24,584 nt of DNA from a virus: IMG/VR virus record IMGVR_UViG_3300021335_000088, positions 1 to 24,584 of that record; one strand, 5' to 3'. The notes beneath the pieces are model-generated. The model searched no databases, was not told the origin of the DNA, and saw only the letters and a program-made list of their open reading frames with translations. Below are positions 5,657 through 24,584 of the stretch, piece after piece. The translations under genes were made by a program, and so were the position numbers. The number at the start of each line of letters is the position of its first letter. The first letter of the stretch is position 1.

Positions 5657-6828
5657 GTTTAGAAACAACTGAATATTATGATGACTTTATAGATTACTTT
5701 CATAAAGCGAAAGAACAACAAGTAAAGTGTAATGTTTCAGAAGAAGCTCCATATGGGATGATTCCCCATATGGAGTCTGAAATGAATGATGACTTAATGC
5801 ACTGGATTGAACTATACGATGTTGTCGAACGTAAGTATGCTGGCTTCTCACAAATCATGAATGATTGCTGGTCTGGTTGGACCGAAGATCATCCATATTG
5901 GAAGAAGATGAAAGCTGGTTTACATTGTGATCAACGTAAAGTAGTAGCAGAAAACTGGACCGGTAAACATAAAGATTTTGATTTGCCAGAATGGTTATAT
6001 CTTTTTATCCTACATCGTGTATGTGGTTCTGCTATTAACTATGCTACTAAACCATCTGGCTATCATAACACACTATTGTTTACACTTCATAAGGCTAAAA
6101 CTATTGAAGATATGATTTGGCATATGAAGAGACATACTACGCCATTTTATACTTCAGTTGGTTATCAGTTTCCTAAGTTTCCAAAAAGACCAGAAGGTTC
6201 AGACTACAAAAGAAGTGGTGATTATTACCTAGCAGAATTTGCTCCTCGTCTTGCAAGAGAAATGGCAGAGTGGTTGCAAACTTCGAATGAAAGAAAGGAT
6301 CTTCGAGAAATCGGAGAATATATGGGTAAGTGGAATGAACGAAACGGCCTCAATCGTTATACTTTTCAATATGCTGCAGTGGTTGCCGATATTTGTGATT
6401 GGTATCCACAGTTTGTTAACAAAGAATCACATTTCTATTATGGTACTAATGCTGTTGAGTGTATATCTTATTTGGCTAAGCCAACTGTAAAGATGAAGAA
6501 AGAGATATTTCTTGACAAAGTAATGGATAAGATTTATGAAGACACAAAGTCGTATCCTTATAATGCAGAAGATGTGTGTTGTGATTATATTCGATGGGTT
6601 GAAAACTATATGAGACCTGGCGCGCATTACTCGCATGTAGATATGGATAATGTCTGGTCGTCAAGTAAAATTAAAAATCATCCGTTCGGTCGACAAAAAG
6701 CAATGTTAGAATTAGGTTTAGTTGAAACATTCAATAGACGTAAGCATCATCCTTCAGATGCCACAGTATTAAACGAAGTCGGTATTTCAGTGAAAGAATA
6801 TAAAGATAGATGCGCCACGCTACACTAG
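5653..6828 (+). CDS. Putative DNA base hypermodification protein (first of pair)
   Basis: 391 aa, soluble, rich in Trp, Tyr and His. The best-defined block is near residues 117-145: a helix LYLFILHRVCGSAINYA followed by KPSGYHNTLL, then KTIEDMIWHMK. A C-terminal block has HPFGRQKAMLELGLVE near 344-359. I do not recognise it with certainty. The layout (between a dCMP hydroxymethylase and a PLP enzyme, paired with a second helical protein) recalls the predicted alpha-glutamyl/putrescinyl-thymine pyrophosphorylase and amino acid:DNA transferase (ADDT) families of phage thymine hypermodification. This assignment is inference. A perfect 11-bp inverted repeat lies inside the gene at 5747-5775. The gene overlaps the previous one by 4 nt and the next by 19 nt. 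Confidence 0.8.
   Translation: MSLETTEYYDDFIDYFHKAKEQQVKCNVSEEAPYGMIPHMESEMNDDLMHWIELYDVVERKYAGFSQIMNDCWSGWTEDHPYWKKMKAGLHCDQRKVVAENWTGKHKDFDLPEWLYLFILHRVCGSAINYATKPSGYHNTLLFTLHKAKTIEDMIWHMKRHTTPFYTSVGYQFPKFPKRPEGSDYKRSGDYYLAEFAPRLAREMAEWLQTSNERKDLREIGEYMGKWNERNGLNRYTFQYAAVVADICDWYPQFVNKESHFYYGTNAVECISYLAKPTVKMKKEIFLDKVMDKIYEDTKSYPYNAEDVCCDYIRWVENYMRPGAHYSHVDMDNVWSSSKIKNHPFGRQKAMLELGLVETFNRRKHHPSDATVLNEVGISVKEYKDRCATLH
5747..5775 (+). repeat. Perfect 11-bp inverted repeat within coding sequence
   Basis: CTCCATATGGG (5747-5757) and CCCATATGGAG (5765-5775) are exact reverse complements separated by 7 nt. Each arm contains the palindrome CCATATGG. The repeat lies about 95 nt into the 5653 gene. 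In RNA it would form a stable hairpin early in the message; no T-tract follows, so it is not a classic terminator. Confidence 0.85.
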
Positions 6829-7818: not shown

Positions 7819-8763
7819 ATGTCACATGATAAACACGTAATCGATAATGTAAATAAAGACATAGAAGTCTTAAGTCTTGATGGGATTCAAACTCGTCAAG
7901 AAGCAAAGGAATATTATCTTAAATTAGCTGAAGGTTGGGAAGATCCTAATCCACAACCAGTTATAAAGGAATATGATGGTGTACGAGTTGTTCGAGACGA
8001 TCTCATTACAGGTAGTAAAGTACGAGGAGGAGATTTACTTATTTCTCGTATTAATCAATCTCGTCTCGTTTATGTTCAGCCTCGCACTGGTTTGGCTGGA
8101 GTCTCGCTCTTGGATGTGGCAAAGAGACACAATAAAAGCGTTAGGCTATTCATGCCCTCATCGAAAAGAATTAGTCATCATCAAGCTTGCTGTATCGAGC
8201 GCGGTGCTGAGTATGATTTCTATCGTGTGGCTGCTATGCCTAACCTCAATAGGATAGCAAATAAATGGGCACAAGACAACGACGATGCGTTTTTTATCCC
8301 GTTAGGTTTAAAGCACGAACTCGTTACGGCAGGTATCGTAAAGGTAGCATCAGCAATTCCAGCACCAAAAGAAGTATGGACCGTAGTATCTACAGGCGTA
8401 CTTCATCGCGCCTTGCAGATCGCTTGGCCAAAAGCTGAGTTTCATGCTGTTGCAGTTGCACGTAATATGAAAGAAGGTGAAGTTGGTCATAGTAATATTA
8501 TTTCTGCACCTGAACCTTTTACTAAAGAAATTAAAGAAGGACTGCCACCCTTCCCTAGTATAAACACATATGATGGAAAAGCTTGGCGATATATCCCTAA
8601 AAATTCTGGTAGGGACGTCTTATTTTGGAATGTAGGTACCGAACCGGTACTAAACGATGATACTATATACGATAGAGTTGATTCATATAGAAAGTGGAGC
8701 AAAGATGAAAAAAGTACTATTGACAGGTCTAGGACCAATCTCGAACAAAATCCATTCGCATAA
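7819..8763 (+). CDS. PLP-dependent enzyme, fold type II (ACC deaminase/cysteine synthase-like)
   Basis: 314 aa. VRDDLITGSKVRGGD (57-71) matches the PLP-lysine segment of fold-type II enzymes (RDDL..G.K.R), making K67 the likely Schiff-base lysine. A phosphate-binding-like TG..G segment follows (RTGLAGVSLLDVAKRH), then a Rossmann strand VRLFMPS, and later FIPLGLKHELVTAGIVK. Such enzymes carry out beta-elimination, deamination or decarboxylation-like steps on amino acids. PLP enzymes are known or predicted in phage thymine hypermodification operons, acting on the amino-acid-decorated base. That role here is inferred from the neighbours. No Shine-Dalgarno sequence is seen, and the promoter start coincides with the ATG. 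The 3' end overlaps the next gene by 59 nt. Confidence 0.78.
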   Translation: MSHDKHVIDNVNKDIEVLSLDGIQTRQEAKEYYLKLAEGWEDPNPQPVIKEYDGVRVVRDDLITGSKVRGGDLLISRINQSRLVYVQPRTGLAGVSLLDVAKRHNKSVRLFMPSSKRISHHQACCIERGAEYDFYRVAAMPNLNRIANKWAQDNDDAFFIPLGLKHELVTAGIVKVASAIPAPKEVWTVVSTGVLHRALQIAWPKAEFHAVAVARNMKEGEVGHSNIISAPEPFTKEIKEGLPPFPSINTYDGKAWRYIPKNSGRDVLFWNVGTEPVLNDDTIYDRVDSYRKWSKDEKSTIDRSRTNLEQNPFA

Positions 8764-9754
8764 AGCTGCACAAGCTATTATCTATGCAGATCAGTTAAAA
8801 CAAGCTGGTATGGATGTTACAATCAATTTAGTCAGTAATAAGATTACTGATTATAGTCCATTTGATGAAATTTATTTTTATCATGGATCCGATTGGAGTG
8901 GAAATCTGAATCTCTTCGGCGGTATTGAAGCATATGCTAATACAGCATATGTGTCCGCTTTGTCACATTTTAGTGGTAAAATTAAATCAATCATAGTTGA
9001 CTTTCCTGATTATGCTTCTATGTTTCTTGACCGTTTAGCTAAAAAAGATATGACATGGAATACAGTACATTGGGAAAATTTGCGTAAGCTGCAGATAGAA
9101 GCTGAGATAGTTGATCCTAACATGATTAAAAGATATCGTAAGATTGCCTTTGGTGATAGTCATGCAATCTGCATGTACCGGCCCGGGTGGGAGAATGTAT
9201 CAGTACCTTTCTCTACACTACATGGTTCTATCAATAAAGGATTTGAGACATTTGTACCAGAAAATGGTGAACCAATGAGAGAAGATAGATATGACGAAAT
9301 CGAAACATATTTTGGTAATATCGACATTCGTCATCACCTTTGTAGGTTTGATAATCCTATCGAAGAGGCACATAAATTAGCTGATAGATATGGAGAAGAA
9401 GTAGAACGCATGCGTAAATTATTTAAAGCAAATATTACCGCATGGGAACCATTACCAATTGAAGATGAAGCTCGCAAAATTCCAAAAACTGGTTGGTATA
9501 AAGGTACACCATTTTATGGAAAATGGCAACAACGTGATGAAGTTCGTAATGCTTTTACCGAAAGATTAAAGTCACATACTCAAGTTTATAATTGGGTTGA
9601 ACCACTATATAATCCTATAGGTCAGTTAGGTTATGAGGCTATGGAAAAACCACAATCAGTTCACTTATCAAGAGCATCTTATCCGCATTGGCAAGGTACA
9701 GAATGGACAGAAGAACAAGAAGAGGTATCAACACTTGAAGCATTCTTTGGATAA
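8705..9754 (+). CDS. SGNH/GDSL-like protein with clamp-binding-type tail
   Basis: 349 aa from the ATG at 8705. GGAG at 8696-8699 leaves 5 nt; an in-frame ATG at 8657 is less likely. The N-terminal half looks alpha/beta (MKKVLLTGLGP..., then an FDEIYFYHG strand). IAFGDSHAICMY resembles SGNH block I (GDS), GNIDIRHHLCR could be the block III Asn region, and VHLS near the C-terminus could supply the block V His. SGNH proteins are usually esterases or acyltransferases; the substrate is unknown here. The protein ends STLEAFFG, nearly identical to the last residues of the phage DNA polymerase (NTLEAFFA), suggesting recruitment to the sliding clamp. It sits between a PLP enzyme and a radical SAM enzyme. 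The fold assignment is moderate; the gene itself is secure. Confidence 0.72.
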   Translation: MKKVLLTGLGPISNKIHSHKAAQAIIYADQLKQAGMDVTINLVSNKITDYSPFDEIYFYHGSDWSGNLNLFGGIEAYANTAYVSALSHFSGKIKSIIVDFPDYASMFLDRLAKKDMTWNTVHWENLRKLQIEAEIVDPNMIKRYRKIAFGDSHAICMYRPGWENVSVPFSTLHGSINKGFETFVPENGEPMREDRYDEIETYFGNIDIRHHLCRFDNPIEEAHKLADRYGEEVERMRKLFKANITAWEPLPIEDEARKIPKTGWYKGTPFYGKWQQRDEVRNAFTERLKSHTQVYNWVEPLYNPIGQLGYEAMEKPQSVHLSRASYPHWQGTEWTEEQEEVSTLEAFFG

Positions 9755-10943
9755 TTTTTGTATATTACCTTGGATACACGTAAATCTAAATCCTAACGGT
9801 GATATTGCGCCATGCTGTATTACCGAAGGTAATGATACTATGGGTAATATAAATGATACACCGATCGAAGAAATATGGAACTCACGCAAATACATGGAGT
9901 TGCGTAAAGAATTTCTTGATGGTAAACAACCGCGGATGTGTAAGAGATGTTTTGATAAAGAAAAAACTGGTTCAAGAAGTAACAGACAATCCACATTTGA
10001 AAAATTTCCTAATGAGATTAGTAAAGAGCGTACAACAAAAGCTGAATTAAAGTTGAAGCATTGGGACTTTAGATTTAATAATCTATGCAATCTAAAATGC
10101 AGAACATGTGGACCCTATTGTAGTTCTTCTTGGATTCCAGACGCCAAAAAATTAAATTATAAGAATGATTTTCCTAAAATAATAAAAAATAAAAACACTT
10201 ACGATCTCATTGATAAAAATATCGATAACGTCGAGAGAATTTATTTTGCTGGTGGTGAACCTCTTTTAATGGATGAACATTGGTATATAATAAAGAAATT
10301 AGACGAGCTAGGTAGATATGATGTACGATTAGAATATAATACCAATCTTACTACTTTAAAATATAAGAATGAAAATATAATAGATTATTGGAAAAAGTGG
10401 ATTGGAAATCATCAATCTCCTGCTAGTATTGTGAACCTATGGCCAAGTATAGATGAAATAGGTGAAAGAGCAGAGATAATAAGATCAGGGACAGTTTGGA
10501 AAAAAATAGAAGATAACTTAAAAAAAGTCATCGATGCTGGAATTGATCCCCAACCATCTATAACTGTAAGCGTATTAAATGTACATAGAATACCTACAAT
10601 AGTAAATCATCTTATTGGTTTAGGAATTAGAGCAAAAAGAATATCGTATAATCTAGTTATTACACCTGAATATTATAATGTATCTGTTTTAAACGAAAAG
10701 GCAAAGCAAAAAATTAGAATTGATTTATTAAAATTTATTTTAGATACAAAAATCAAATATGGGTGGGATTATAGTCAAGGACTAGCACAAATAATGAATG
10801 AATTAAGAAAGCCCCAACGTAAAGAATTAGTTCATGCGTTTTGGGTATATTCGTGGTCTTTGGATAAAGTTCGTTCTGAAAACATATTTAATATTATTCC
10901 AGAGCTAAAAGATAATGTACAATTAGACGAGGATGTGGTATAA
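9747..10943 (+). CDS. Radical SAM protein with N-terminal twitch/SPASM-like domain
   Basis: 398 aa. The start is best placed at TTG 9747, overlapping the previous stop by 8 nt, because the conserved N-terminus begins DNFCILPWIHVNLNPNG; upstream in-frame residues look like out-of-frame translation of the preceding gene. The radical SAM cluster motif CxxxCxxC is C114-NLK-C118-RT-C121. Additional cysteines (C5, C23, C24, C65-x2-C68) resemble the auxiliary-cluster ligands of twitch-domain radical SAM proteins. FAGGEPLL is the usual GGE motif. Radical SAM enzymes are known in phage thymine hypermodification (for example in Pseudomonas phage M6), where they rearrange the base side chain; that role is inferred here. 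The last bases hold a promoter for the UvsX region. Confidence 0.88.
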   Translation: MDNFCILPWIHVNLNPNGDIAPCCITEGNDTMGNINDTPIEEIWNSRKYMELRKEFLDGKQPRMCKRCFDKEKTGSRSNRQSTFEKFPNEISKERTTKAELKLKHWDFRFNNLCNLKCRTCGPYCSSSWIPDAKKLNYKNDFPKIIKNKNTYDLIDKNIDNVERIYFAGGEPLLMDEHWYIIKKLDELGRYDVRLEYNTNLTTLKYKNENIIDYWKKWIGNHQSPASIVNLWPSIDEIGERAEIIRSGTVWKKIEDNLKKVIDAGIDPQPSITVSVLNVHRIPTIVNHLIGLGIRAKRISYNLVITPEYYNVSVLNEKAKQKIRIDLLKFILDTKIKYGWDYSQGLAQIMNELRKPQRKELVHAFWVYSWSLDKVRSENIFNIIPELKDNVQLDEDVV

Positions 10944-19102: not shown

Positions 19103-19131
19103 TGTACAACGTATTAAAAATGTGGTATAAT
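19103..19131 (+). promoter_or_regulatory. Promoter TGTACA-17-TGGTATAAT for the tmRNA
   Basis: The -35 is TGTACA (19103-19108), the -10 TATAAT (19126-19131), preceded by TGG. The predicted start is near 19138, immediately before the acceptor piece of the permuted tmRNA. TATAAATA at 19136-19143 matches the T4 late-promoter consensus and could give a second, late start. The oxygenase operon at 19478 may be co-transcribed. Confidence 0.8.
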
Positions 19132-19224
19132 ACTATATAAATAAAAAATGATTCAGTGAAACTGGATGGACGTAGACTGGACGTGGGGGCAGTACCCACC
19201 GCCTCCACCATAAGGAGTCTTATA

Positions 19225-19332
19225 ATGGATGAAGTGTTATTGTGGCAGTTTAGACAAAAATGTGTAGAATATATTTGTATCAATAACTATTCAATATATC
19301 ACGCGAGACTTTTTATGATGGGGGCGAAATAG
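19225..19332 (+). CDS. Small ORF in the tmRNA intervening segment
   Basis: 35 aa starting MDEVLLWQFRQ and ending LFMMGAK, whose stop TAG (19330-19332) lies inside the 5' region of the tmRNA coding piece. TAAGGAGT at 19211-19218 is a strong Shine-Dalgarno sequence 8 nt before the ATG, directly after the encoded CCA. The reading frame fills the whole intervening segment without interruption. If real, it would be translated from unprocessed precursor and destroyed or released by tmRNA processing. No family is recognised. The ribosome binding site and the exact filling of the segment argue for it; its small size argues for caution. Confidence 0.5.
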   Translation: MDEVLLWQFRQKCVEYICINNYSIYHARLFMMGAK

Positions 19333-19376
19333 GATCGACAGATACGAGAAGGCAGTGGAGAATCAAAAAAGTAAAT

Positions 19377-19418
19377 GCAAACGATAACTTTGCTCCTGAG
19401 ATGCGCCTAGCGGCATAA
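19377..19418 (+). other. tmRNA tag-peptide reading frame ANDNFAPEMRLAA
   Basis: Thirteen codons (GCA AAC GAT AAC ... GCG GCA) then TAA. The ANDN start resembles alphaproteobacterial tags, and the terminal LAA is the ClpXP/ClpAP degron. The tag would direct proteins stalled during infection to host proteases. Alphaproteobacterial affinity of the tag is from memory of known tags. Confidence 0.9.
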
Positions 19419-19477
19419 TCTCTGGGCCCGCAGGAGCCTCGAAACAGAATCCTGCAACTCATTCAAAGGAGAGCTTA

Positions 19478-20560
19478 ATGGCACCACGTAATCATAGCAA
19501 TTGGACTAAAACACCAAAGGTAGAATATATTAGTAGTGAATGCTATAATGATCATAGCATCTATCTACGTGAACAAGAAGAAATCTTTTCAAAGGTGTGG
19601 GTTCCTATGTGCCACATCAGTGAGATGTATAATAAAGATGATTTTCGTACTACACAAATCGCAGGTCAAAACGTAATTGCATGGAATACTGGTGATGGCG
19701 TGAAAGCAGCATATAATTTACAAATGCAATCTCCAGCTGGCAATCAAGTTGCTATCGATAGAGGCTGTGGTAAAAAACTACACTGTGAAGTCAAACATGG
19801 TGGCATGATATGGGTGACACTAGATCCTAATCCTACGCAGTCTGTAGATGAATGGACAGCAGGTGCATTCGATTGTATTGCTGATGCTATTGATACCGAA
19901 GAAATGGAAGTTTTTCATTACCATAAAGCAGTTATAGATACTAATTATAAATTATGGCATGATACTAACAGCGAGTTCTATCACGACTTTATGCACTACT
20001 TTAATCGTGTGTCAGGATTTAACGATGAATATTTCGCTAGAAAGAATATCCCTTTTGATAATGGTCATGTTAATGTTAGCAGCTTTACTGTTAACTATGA
20101 AGAGTATGACGGATTTGAAGATCGCGGGGAACTATCTTTTCCCAATCTGCCGCCCAACCAGTGGTACATGGTCGACCTCTTTCCAGGATTCAACTTTAAC
20201 CTTCGCGGGAGTGCATATCGTTCAGACTCAGTAACACCGCTTGGACCTAATAAAGTACTCATTGAATTCCGCGGTTACGGTTTACGTAAGGATACACCTG
20301 AAGAAAGACAAACAAGAATCAAACACCACAATTCTATTTGGGGACCATTCGGTCGTAACCTACATGAAGATTTGATTGGTGTTGCAGGTCAAGGTACCAC
20401 AATGAGAGAAGGTACCGAATCAAGAAACATTCTACATGGCCGCCATGAAAATTCTACAATTCATGATGAAGTTGGGATGAGACATTATTACACAGCCTGG
20501 GGTAACATGTTAGGTGTTAACCCAGCTAATCCAATGAATAAATATGAAATGGCAGCTTAA
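19478..20560 (+). CDS. Rieske-type oxygenase homologue lacking the Rieske cluster motif
   Basis: 360 aa. The C-terminal catalytic domain of ring-hydroxylating oxygenase alpha subunits is recognisable: NYKLWHDTNSEFYHDFMH near 162-179 (family pattern NWKxxxENxxExYHxxxxH), with HEDLIGVAGQG near 302-312 as the third-ligand region. The His-His spacing is three intervening residues, one fewer than usual. The N-terminal domain starts as in the family (EIFSKVWVPMCHISE...), but CxH...CxxH, which holds the [2Fe-2S] cluster, is absent. The segment between AYNLQ and GGMIWVTLDP is only about 30 residues, where 70-80 is usual. It may need another electron route or have lost redox function. AAAGGAG sits 6 nt before the ATG, right after the tmRNA. 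The substrate is unknown. Confidence 0.7.
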   Translation: MAPRNHSNWTKTPKVEYISSECYNDHSIYLREQEEIFSKVWVPMCHISEMYNKDDFRTTQIAGQNVIAWNTGDGVKAAYNLQMQSPAGNQVAIDRGCGKKLHCEVKHGGMIWVTLDPNPTQSVDEWTAGAFDCIADAIDTEEMEVFHYHKAVIDTNYKLWHDTNSEFYHDFMHYFNRVSGFNDEYFARKNIPFDNGHVNVSSFTVNYEEYDGFEDRGELSFPNLPPNQWYMVDLFPGFNFNLRGSAYRSDSVTPLGPNKVLIEFRGYGLRKDTPEERQTRIKHHNSIWGPFGRNLHEDLIGVAGQGTTMREGTESRNILHGRHENSTIHDEVGMRHYYTAWGNMLGVNPANPMNKYEMAA

Positions 20561-20781
20561 TGGCAGAAGAAAAGAAGTCTGGTGTTGTAGTTAAACAAGA
20601 CCATAATGAATTCGAGTTAATGTTAAGATTTTTAGGCAATGAATTAATTGCCATCAGATTAGCAGCAACAAACTTTAATGGTAAGTTGATTATGTGGAGT
20701 ATTGTCCTCATGATCTTTACGTTTATGATAATGGAGGTGTTCGGTCTGAGTGCAATGCTTGGATTCGGCGATAATATGTAA
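20560..20781 (+). CDS. Small membrane protein, one TM
   Basis: 73 aa. The first 40 residues are soluble and amphipathic (FELMLRFLGNELIAIRLAA), then a TM segment at about 44-63 (MWSIVLMIFTFMIMEVFGLS). The function is unknown. TAATG overlaps with the oxygenase stop and the next start show tight coupling, so it may be a partner of the oxygenase or of the secreted protein that follows. Confidence 0.72.
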   Translation: MAEEKKSGVVVKQDHNEFELMLRFLGNELIAIRLAATNFNGKLIMWSIVLMIFTFMIMEVFGLSAMLGFGDNM

Positions 20782-23984: not shown

Positions 23985-24150
23985 CATAGATCAGACAGCC
24001 GCTTGGGCAAAAAGTTGGGGTATGAAAGGTTTCGAACACTTGTATCCTGAGAACCGCGATAAGCAAAGGCAATATGCAGTACGCCAGTGGAATGAAAACA
24101 ATCGCGAAAAACTTAACAAAACTTTAACACAACGTGATCGTTCTAGATGA
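23971..24150 (+). CDS. Small basic protein, unknown
   Basis: 59 aa, beginning MKAHSIDQTAAWAKSWGMKG and ending LTQRDRSR, with many Arg, Asn and Gln. No motif is recognised. It overlaps the genes on both sides (14 nt and 4 nt), and the reading frame is uninterrupted with codon choice like the neighbours, which supports it despite its small size. Confidence 0.6.
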   Translation: MKAHSIDQTAAWAKSWGMKGFEHLYPENRDKQRQYAVRQWNENNREKLNKTLTQRDRSR

Positions 24151-24278
24151 TAAGTAATAGTATAGCACATTATTGGAAGTGGTTCGTCAAGTTAAAGAAG
24201 GAATATGGTGTTCTTACTGCTTTAATGTGTTTTTTGTATAACGGTAAAAACTACAACTTAGACGGAACGTACAGATGA
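24147..24278 (+). CDS. Small protein between pstS and upstream operon
   Basis: 43 aa (MISNSIAHYWKWFVKLKKEY, then GVLTALMCFLYNGKN). ATGA overlap upstream and a 4-nt overlap with pstS downstream. A weakly hydrophobic middle (GVLTALMCFLY) is too short for a sure TM helix. It may serve mainly to couple pstS translation. Confidence 0.5.
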   Translation: MISNSIAHYWKWFVKLKKEYGVLTALMCFLYNGKNYNLDGTYR

Positions 24279-24584
24279 AAAAAATCATTCTCGCAACAGC
24301 TCTTGCTCTTGTGGCCTCAAACGCACAGGCACGAGAGCAAATCCAAATTGTCGGTTCATCGACAGTTTATCCATTCGCTACAATCGTGGCAGAAAAATTC
24401 GGACAACAAGATAATAAAACACCAGTCATCGAGTCAACTGGTACAGGTGGTGGCATGAAGCTATTCTGTGCTGGTATTGGTGTTAATCATCCAGACATTA
24501 CAAATGCATCACGTGCTATCAAGTCAGGAGAAAAGGCAATGTGTGAAAAGAACGGTGTTACTCCAGTCGAGTTTGCCGTAGGTA
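24275..24584 (+). CDS. pstS: PstS-like phosphate-binding protein (partial, runs off right edge)
   Basis: The first 103 residues are visible. The signal peptide is MKKIILATALALVASNAQA, then the PstS N-terminal signature IVGSSTVYPFA, and ESTGTGGGMKLFC with SRAIKSGEKAMC, typical of phosphate ABC-transporter substrate-binding proteins. PstS captures phosphate in the periplasm for the host PstCAB transporter. pstS is a well-known auxiliary gene of marine T4-like phages under phosphate limitation. No Pho-box-like element is seen; it overlaps the upstream small gene by 4 nt and has no promoter of its own in view. The 3' end is outside the window. Confidence 0.92.
   Translation, partial: MKKIILATALALVASNAQAREQIQIVGSSTVYPFATIVAEKFGQQDNKTPVIESTGTGGGMKLFCAGIGVNHPDITNASRAIKSGEKAMCEKNGVTPVEFAVG

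Follow-up and report, generated by a model that had tools for sequence, protein, structure and literature searches.

Is a tmRNA gene that lies in two pieces in the genome of a T4-like phage a working gene, and what is carried by the DNA between these pieces? We address this question for a 24,584-nt stretch of viral DNA (the window), in which the original prediction had placed a circularly permuted tmRNA at positions 19139-19460. The locus probably represents a functional two-piece tmRNA gene, encoded by a T4-like phage and giving an RNA of about 200 nt, with an exchangeable microprotein gene nested in its spacer. The parts of this trimmed tmRNA would be a tRNA-like domain, helix 2, an A-rich linker, the tag, and one 3' pseudoknot. 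Permuted phage tmRNAs are already known; new, as far as our literature search showed, are the loss of the pseudoknot PK1 and, above all, the exchangeable and conserved microprotein gene inside the split. Neither of these features, nor the pair of promoters, formed part of the original prediction.

Identity of the locus and its relatives

The identity of the locus as a circularly permuted alpha-type tmRNA is confirmed (Table 1). When the whole window was searched with the Rfam models (cmscan), the alpha_tmRNA model (RF01849), by which the original prediction had proposed to check the locus, matched positions 19111-19459 (+) with 96.7 bits (E 1.6e-25; gathering score, 50 bits), and the tmRNA_permuted model (RF04321) matched positions 19160-19418 (+) with 91.4 bits (E 1e-16; gathering score, 47 bits). 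Both models find the same, single tmRNA in the window; ARAGORN reported none there. The predicted arrangement stands as well: an acceptor piece ending with an encoded CCA at position 19210 is located 5' of the coding piece, whose GGGGGCG (19320-19326) pairs with CGCCTCC (19200-19206). Co-folded alone, the two pieces form a 7-bp acceptor stem, a 5-bp T stem, and helix 2. According to the model used, the mature RNA comprises 61 + 140 = 201 nt, the 5' end of the acceptor piece having been deduced from the position of the late promoter box.

Table 1. Features of the tmRNA locus and its surroundings in the window.
Feature	Positions	Strand	Basis or remark
Predicted sigma70-type promoter	19103..19131	+	TGTACA, 17-nt spacer, extended -10 TGG-TATAAT; 10/12 consensus matches
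Candidate T4-type late promoter box TATAAATA	19136..19143	+	Sole + strand copy in the window
Acceptor (tRNA-like 3') piece of the tmRNA	19150..19210	+	Rfam alignment, co-fold, T-stem covariation
T stem of the acceptor piece	19183-19187/19195-19199	+	
Acceptor strand	19200-19206	+	ACCA at 19207-19210
Spacer	19211..19319	+	Between the two pieces; predicted absent from mature tmRNA
Shine-Dalgarno (SD) sequence AAGGAG of the nested ORF	19212..19217	+	Sequence; within the spacer helix
Nested microprotein ORF MDEVLLWQFRQKCVEYICINNYSIYHARLFMMGAK	19225..19332	+	Sequence, family F3; ATG at 19225, 35 codons + TAG
Coding piece of the tmRNA	19320..19459	+	Rfam alignment, co-fold; 3' end approximate
A-rich 12-nt linker, helix 2 to resume codon	19365..19376	+	Co-fold; normal place of PK1
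Tag ORF ANDNFAPEMRLAA and stop	19377-19415, TAA 19416-19418	+	Sequence; 13 aa
3' pseudoknot, ACAGAA in loop	19424..19455	+	S1 GGGC 19424-19427/GCCT 19436-19439; S2 GCAGGA 19430-19435/TCCTGC 19450-19455
Ring-hydroxylase alpha-subunit-like gene, downstream neighbor of the tmRNA	19478..20560	+	PF00848, 31.5 bits

Comparison with other phage tmRNAs supports this assignment. In 138 of 138 distinct sequences the T stem is paired, as many as four pair types being used at one position (G-C, C-G, T-A and A-T all occur at pairs 1 and 2), and the tmRNA structure can thus not be ascribed to chance. The third acceptor pair is G.U in all 138; since the search patterns partly fix the acceptor strand, its constancy is the weaker proof. 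This pair, G3.U70, is the identity element for alanine. Our search expression demands a tag starting with A-N-D and a near-consensus D-loop, and divergent tmRNAs would consequently escape it. On the evidence of these alignments, tmRNA function is likely preserved.

The original prediction also holds with respect to the phage itself: the window encodes a gp43-type DNA polymerase (phrog_262, 1012.9 bits), a UvsX-like recombinase (phrog_97, 300.4 bits), and a DnaB-like helicase (DnaB_C), all markers of T4-like phages. Among isolates, the nearest polymerase is that of Phage C48C1 (53.5%), followed by those of Synechococcus phages (about 47%). The gene directly downstream of the tmRNA is 70% identical to a gene of HMO-2011 annotated as a methanesulfonate monooxygenase. 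Relatives of it are encoded in at least 599 viral stretches, and 29 of the 80 that we kept from these, many of them short contigs, carry a permuted tmRNA over the cut-off (17/50 + 12/30). The Pfam match of this gene is confined to the catalytic domain; by eye, it seems to lack the usual Rieske cysteine/histidine motif. Elsewhere in the window, we noted a threonine-dehydratase-like gene (7819-8763), a radical-SAM-like gene (9633-10943), and, cut by the window end (about 24280-24584), the start of a gene that by eye resembles a PstS-type phosphate-binding protein.

A permuted tmRNA in a T4-like phage had been expected to be unusual. It is not a first: 53 of 133 unique phage tmRNAs are two-piece, 50 of these 53 stem from marine or aquatic phages, a two-piece ssrA was described for the Methylophilales phage Melnitz, and 17 of 47 Melnitz-cluster contigs possess a permuted tmRNA (PMC9004378). 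Our own searches of IMG/VR with three exact patterns recovered the permuted form in at least 120, at least 119 and at least 120 stretches. Melnitz (MZ577097.1), a marine isolate, resembles the window in carrying a permuted alpha-type tmRNA in a T4-like genome, in its TATAAATA box 71 nt upstream of CCACCA, and in a long spacer that holds an SD-led ORF not annotated as a CDS in the database record. It differs through a 62-nt pre-tag region that scores as a PK1-type pseudoknot, through another tag and another cargo ORF, and through a glutamine riboswitch aptamer right after the tmRNA (positions 6356-6404 of our Melnitz locus L002; 52.8 bits). An Rfam search of the window revealed no such riboswitch 3' of its tmRNA at the gathering score. 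With the permuted tmRNAs of Alphaproteobacteria (RF01849, e.g., Caulobacter) the window shares the gene order, the tRNA-like domain, the tag start ANDN and the 3' pseudoknot with its ACAGAA loop; the bacterial genes differ by the presence of PK1, by mostly short spacers, and by the absence of the late box (found in 1 of 42).

The tag was predicted to be complete and of the alphaproteobacterial type, and the 13 codons and stop at 19377-19418, with a degradation-type C terminus, agree with this. Among 100 distinct phage tmRNAs selected irrespective of their tags, 92 tags end in LAA and all 100 in AA. Differences in the tag interiors amount to 100/90/123 by codon position over 57 nearest pairs, a third-position excess so small that this test does not demonstrate translation. 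The further expectation that the tag would link the phage to a host clade did not hold: the exact peptide occurs in 87 viral stretches versus only two contigs in the collection of bacterial and archaeal genomes, and we therefore rejected the tag as a means to pin the host. In one of these two contigs (L203, from a metagenome-assembled genome of a member of the Hyphomonadaceae), the tmRNA that bears this 13-aa tag has a pre-tag region of the normal, long form (63 nt). Altogether, 93 loci with the exact tag (the window and the two bacterial loci included, and some contigs doubled under two locus identifiers) show 19 DNA spellings on three kinds of tmRNA body. With such a gene, the phage may control ribosome rescue or proteolysis, as originally proposed.

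A tmRNA body without PK1 and its candidate promoters

In the window, GATCGAC and the first tag codon are 37 nt apart, and PK1 is absent; of the canonical alphaproteobacterial architecture, the ACAGAA pseudoknot at the 3' end is present. This pre-tag distance falls into discrete classes among the 100 distinct phage tmRNAs that were selected irrespective of their tags: 27-28 nt in 6, 37 nt in 6, 42-47 nt in 39, and at least 60 nt in 49, so that 51 of the 100 have the short form (27-47 nt). Under strict patterns, the short form was found in 0 of 385 alphaproteobacterial genomes and the long form in 28 of them; under a relaxed pattern, 0 of 250 genomes had the short form, 149 the long form, and 101 neither. 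Most of the long-form alphaproteobacterial matches displayed contain the usual PK1 sequence. Co-folding places the end of helix 2 exactly 12 nt before the resume codon in 17 of 19 tmRNAs of class 37, the window included; in this folding model, PK1 is gone and the A-rich linker is kept. A pseudoknot score of at least 18 before the tag was reached by 0 of 64 short-class sequences versus 36 of 41 bacterial tmRNAs, but the simple scoring script placed only 8 of these 41 above all 12 of their shuffles, which makes the score weak evidence by itself. The classes thus differ, yet the contrast to shuffled sequences is poor, and the argument for the loss of PK1 consequently rests on the spacing and the genome counts.

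This loss is compatible with function, since E. coli tmRNA continues tagging when its PK1 is swapped for single-stranded RNA or a hairpin (PMC4236655). In a comparison from 2005, PK1 was missing only from Oenococcus oeni and one partial chloroplast sequence; the same compilation gives 350 nt as the typical length of a tmRNA and 250 nt as that of the shortest one with a tag (PMC1168896). If our reading is right, naturally PK1-free tmRNAs in quantity bear on the old question of the purpose of PK1.

The 3' pseudoknot has been retained. Applying the requirement of stems S2 of at least 5 and S1 of at least 3 pairs, we found a post-stop pseudoknot with an ACAGAA loop in 8/8 (27/28 nt), 7/7 (37 nt), 33/35 (42-47 nt) and 47/68 (at least 60 nt) distinct phage tmRNAs, and in 30 of 40 bacterial ones. 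All 7 distinct sequences of class 37 and all 8 of class 27/28 share its design, with compensatory changes in S2; among close relatives, S2 varies on both strands (GCAGGA/TCCTGC, GCCGGA/TCCGGC, GCCAGA/TCTGGC, GCCACTT/AAGTGGC). The median distance from the stop codon to the loop is 31-34 nt in the phage classes versus 75 nt in bacteria, so that the phage form is about 40 nt shorter there.

Two types of candidate promoter precede the gene. The 571-nt stretch inspected contains four promoter-like sites versus 2.2 expected, and the sigma70-type match is hence weak by itself; a separate extended -10 element recurs, however, in 18 of 20 tmRNAs of class 37 and in 9 of 12 of class 27/28. T4-type late promoters consist of a box at the start site and need a phage sigma factor and the clamp. 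The octamer TATAAATA is not enriched in the window (two copies on both strands versus 3.5 expected), and the weight of the late box derives from its near-constant position. Of 147 distinct phage tmRNAs, 123 are preceded by the sequence NATAAATA (by class, 12/12, 20/20, 35/40 and 56/75); the same holds for 1 of 42 tmRNAs from bacteria and for 197 of 2940 upstream sequences after shuffling. In the phages, its end lies 24-42 nt 5' of the GGAC in the acceptor piece, with a spread of a few nucleotides per class. A separate TATAAT is located nearby upstream in 29 of 32 members of the short classes; in the other classes, the box is often the -10 element of a TTGACA promoter as well (58/115). Early expression was inferred for the ssrA gene of Melnitz (PMC9004378); the late box, as a sequence element, argues for tmRNA expression late in infection besides such an early phase.

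The spacer as a probable site for microprotein genes

The ends of the spacer pair over 11 bp (19211-19221 with 19305-19315), thereby extending the acceptor stem and covering the Shine-Dalgarno sequence of the nested ORF. A spacer-end helix of at least 7 bp can be formed in 129 of 137 long phage spacers, versus 37.9 when the ends are re-dealt among spacers; as judged from these sequences, the spacer ends covary. The last codons of the nested ORF and its TAG fall inside the coding piece, within the tRNA-like domain. This ORF possesses both a start preceded by an SD sequence and codons under purifying selection: its family, F3, has 14 distinct members with a pN/pS of 0.25, differences of 561/331/1032 by codon position over 91 pairs, and 10/7/24 variable columns.

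Such ORFs are common in long spacers. We collected 274 distinct phage spacers, 137 of at least 95 nt and 137 shorter. An ATG-initiated, SD-led ORF of at least 22 codons occurs in 84 of the 137 long spacers versus 7.3 expected from shuffles, and in none of the 137 shorter ones (1.8 expected); under this rule, the remaining 53 long spacers contain no ORF. As several of these sets were chosen by spacer length, the prevalence of long spacers cannot be read from them; in a sample not chosen in this way, 16 of 27 tmRNAs have spacers of at least 95 nt. For bacterial permuted tmRNAs, a spacer length of 75-125 bp is stated in PMC2704228; by our own measure, 40 of 44 distinct bacterial spacers are at most 61 nt long, the four longer ones having been inspected by eye. 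By blastp (E<=1e-3, composition correction off, which makes the number of groups a rough one), the 84 ORFs fall into 18 families. In the six with at least four members, pN/pS is 0.13, 0.32, 0.25, 0.28, 0.29 and 0.24, values derived from pairs that are not independent. F1, F2, F3, F5, F6 and F8 display a third-position excess; the variable columns of F4 (5/5/7 by codon position) do not clearly do so. Searches of PHROGs with nine microprotein queries yielded no match of known function. In the 388-nt spacers of two further tmRNAs (L224 and L263), two different small ORFs are present within one spacer.

The content of the spacer is exchanged on a nearly constant tmRNA body. Class-37 bodies with 0-13 differences from the window over 211 positions contain as spacer a 29-nt empty hairpin, an ORF of family F3, F7 or F15, or an insert of 267 nt with an ORF resembling F8. 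Conversely, F3 is found on bodies with pre-tag lengths of 27, 28, 37, 62 and 65 nt. For eight of the 18 families, one or more copies lie outside tmRNA spacers: F1, F2, F11, F14 and F15 are among these, and F3 and two others have such copies at a single locus only. The window itself offers two cases: its ORF at 20560-20781 (73 aa, membrane-type, likewise without a PHROGs match of known function) is a free gene 67% identical to the F15 ORF in the tmRNA spacer of L225, and its ORF at 24147-24278 (43 aa) matches the ORF in the L129 spacer with 58% identity across 36 residues. From these comparisons, we read the spacer as an exchangeable site for microprotein genes; homologous recombination via the conserved flanks would be the simplest means of exchange.

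Genes nested in tmRNA genes have precedents. There are tmRNA genes with group I introns that encode homing endonucleases, one permuted tmRNA has a tRNA-Ala gene in its intervening sequence, and another a repetitive element (PMC11915505). The intron-borne genes and the tRNA-Ala gene share with the window the nesting of a gene in a part of the tmRNA gene that is absent from the mature RNA; in the window, by contrast, no intron is involved, the permutation spacer serves as the site, and varied microprotein ORFs make up the cargo. A literature search by titles and the starts of abstracts, with few subscription papers or preprints among its sources, returned neither protein genes in the spacers of permuted tmRNAs nor PK1-free phage tmRNAs.

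Alternative explanations and a model for expression

An ordinary alphaproteobacterial permuted tmRNA might have been acquired by the phage, its short form and spacer ORF being meaningless drift. The RNA families, the tag grammar and the 3' pseudoknot are indeed the same as in bacterial genes, and phage permuted tmRNAs are already published; the recurrence of short forms in phages versus none in the 250 sampled alphaproteobacterial genomes, pN/pS values of 0.13-0.32 in six spacer-ORF families, and a late box at near-constant distance nevertheless render this explanation unlikely. We consider it very unlikely that the phage RNA is a decoy that titrates host SmpB or competes with the host tmRNA, a role suggested for tag-less tRNA-like RNAs such as that of mycobacteriophage DS6A (PMC4131195). 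The DS6A tmRNA, restricted to the tRNA-like domain, is also phage-borne and reduced, but it is tagless; the window has a full tag. A decoy needs neither tag frame nor stop nor C-terminal AA, yet all three are preserved in each of the 100 distinct tmRNAs selected irrespective of their tags, although the first tag codons are required by our search expression. The compact form would suit a decoy, as would the lack of an SmpB family match in the 21 phage records searched, most of them incomplete.

That the spacer ORF is untranslated and its pattern reflects the structure of the precursor RNA appears distinctly improbable to us. In the window, the SD sequence lies within the spacer helix, which could block initiation, and the variable columns of F4 fit this explanation; it is at odds with the third-position excess in six families, with unrelated ORFs at the same site, and with the eight families that have a copy outside tmRNA spacers, F15 at 20560-20778 among them. 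Another reading, which we regard as improbable, treats the spacer as an mRNA built to lose its stop codon, whose product would be tagged and removed by the tmRNA released. In the window and 40 of the 84 counted ORFs, the frame is open up to the start of the coding piece, and the spacer would become a non-stop message once this piece is cut free. Because the 3' end of the spacer is conserved, about 40 open-ended ORFs among 84 may be due to chance and the count itself lends no support; the frame bias (29 of 40 in one frame) stems in part from the same conserved end, and we dropped this as the main reading. If true, the microprotein would be stable only when made from the uncut precursor, and its level in infection would be tied to tmRNA processing or the ribosome-rescue load.

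Returning to a working tmRNA gene with a nested microprotein gene, we propose the following course, in which every step from transcription through processing and charging to tagging, like the translation of the ORF and any part played in infection, is inferred. The acceptor piece, the spacer and the coding piece would be transcribed together into one RNA, early by the host sigma70 polymerase and later by the phage late transcription complex. The paired spacer ends would lengthen the acceptor stem, and host tRNA-processing enzymes would excise the two tmRNA pieces, which would stay paired and, with G3.U70 kept, be charged by the host alanyl-tRNA synthetase. Host SmpB would be needed as partner of the charged phage tmRNA, since no SmpB was found in the 21 phage records searched. 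The spacer has an SD sequence and ATG of its own, and a small phage protein would be made from it, either on the precursor or on the fragment after its release. If this model is right, microprotein genes overlooked by annotation would commonly dock in the split tmRNA genes of marine phages, as ARAGORN missed the tmRNA of the window and the record of Melnitz lists no coding sequence in its spacer.
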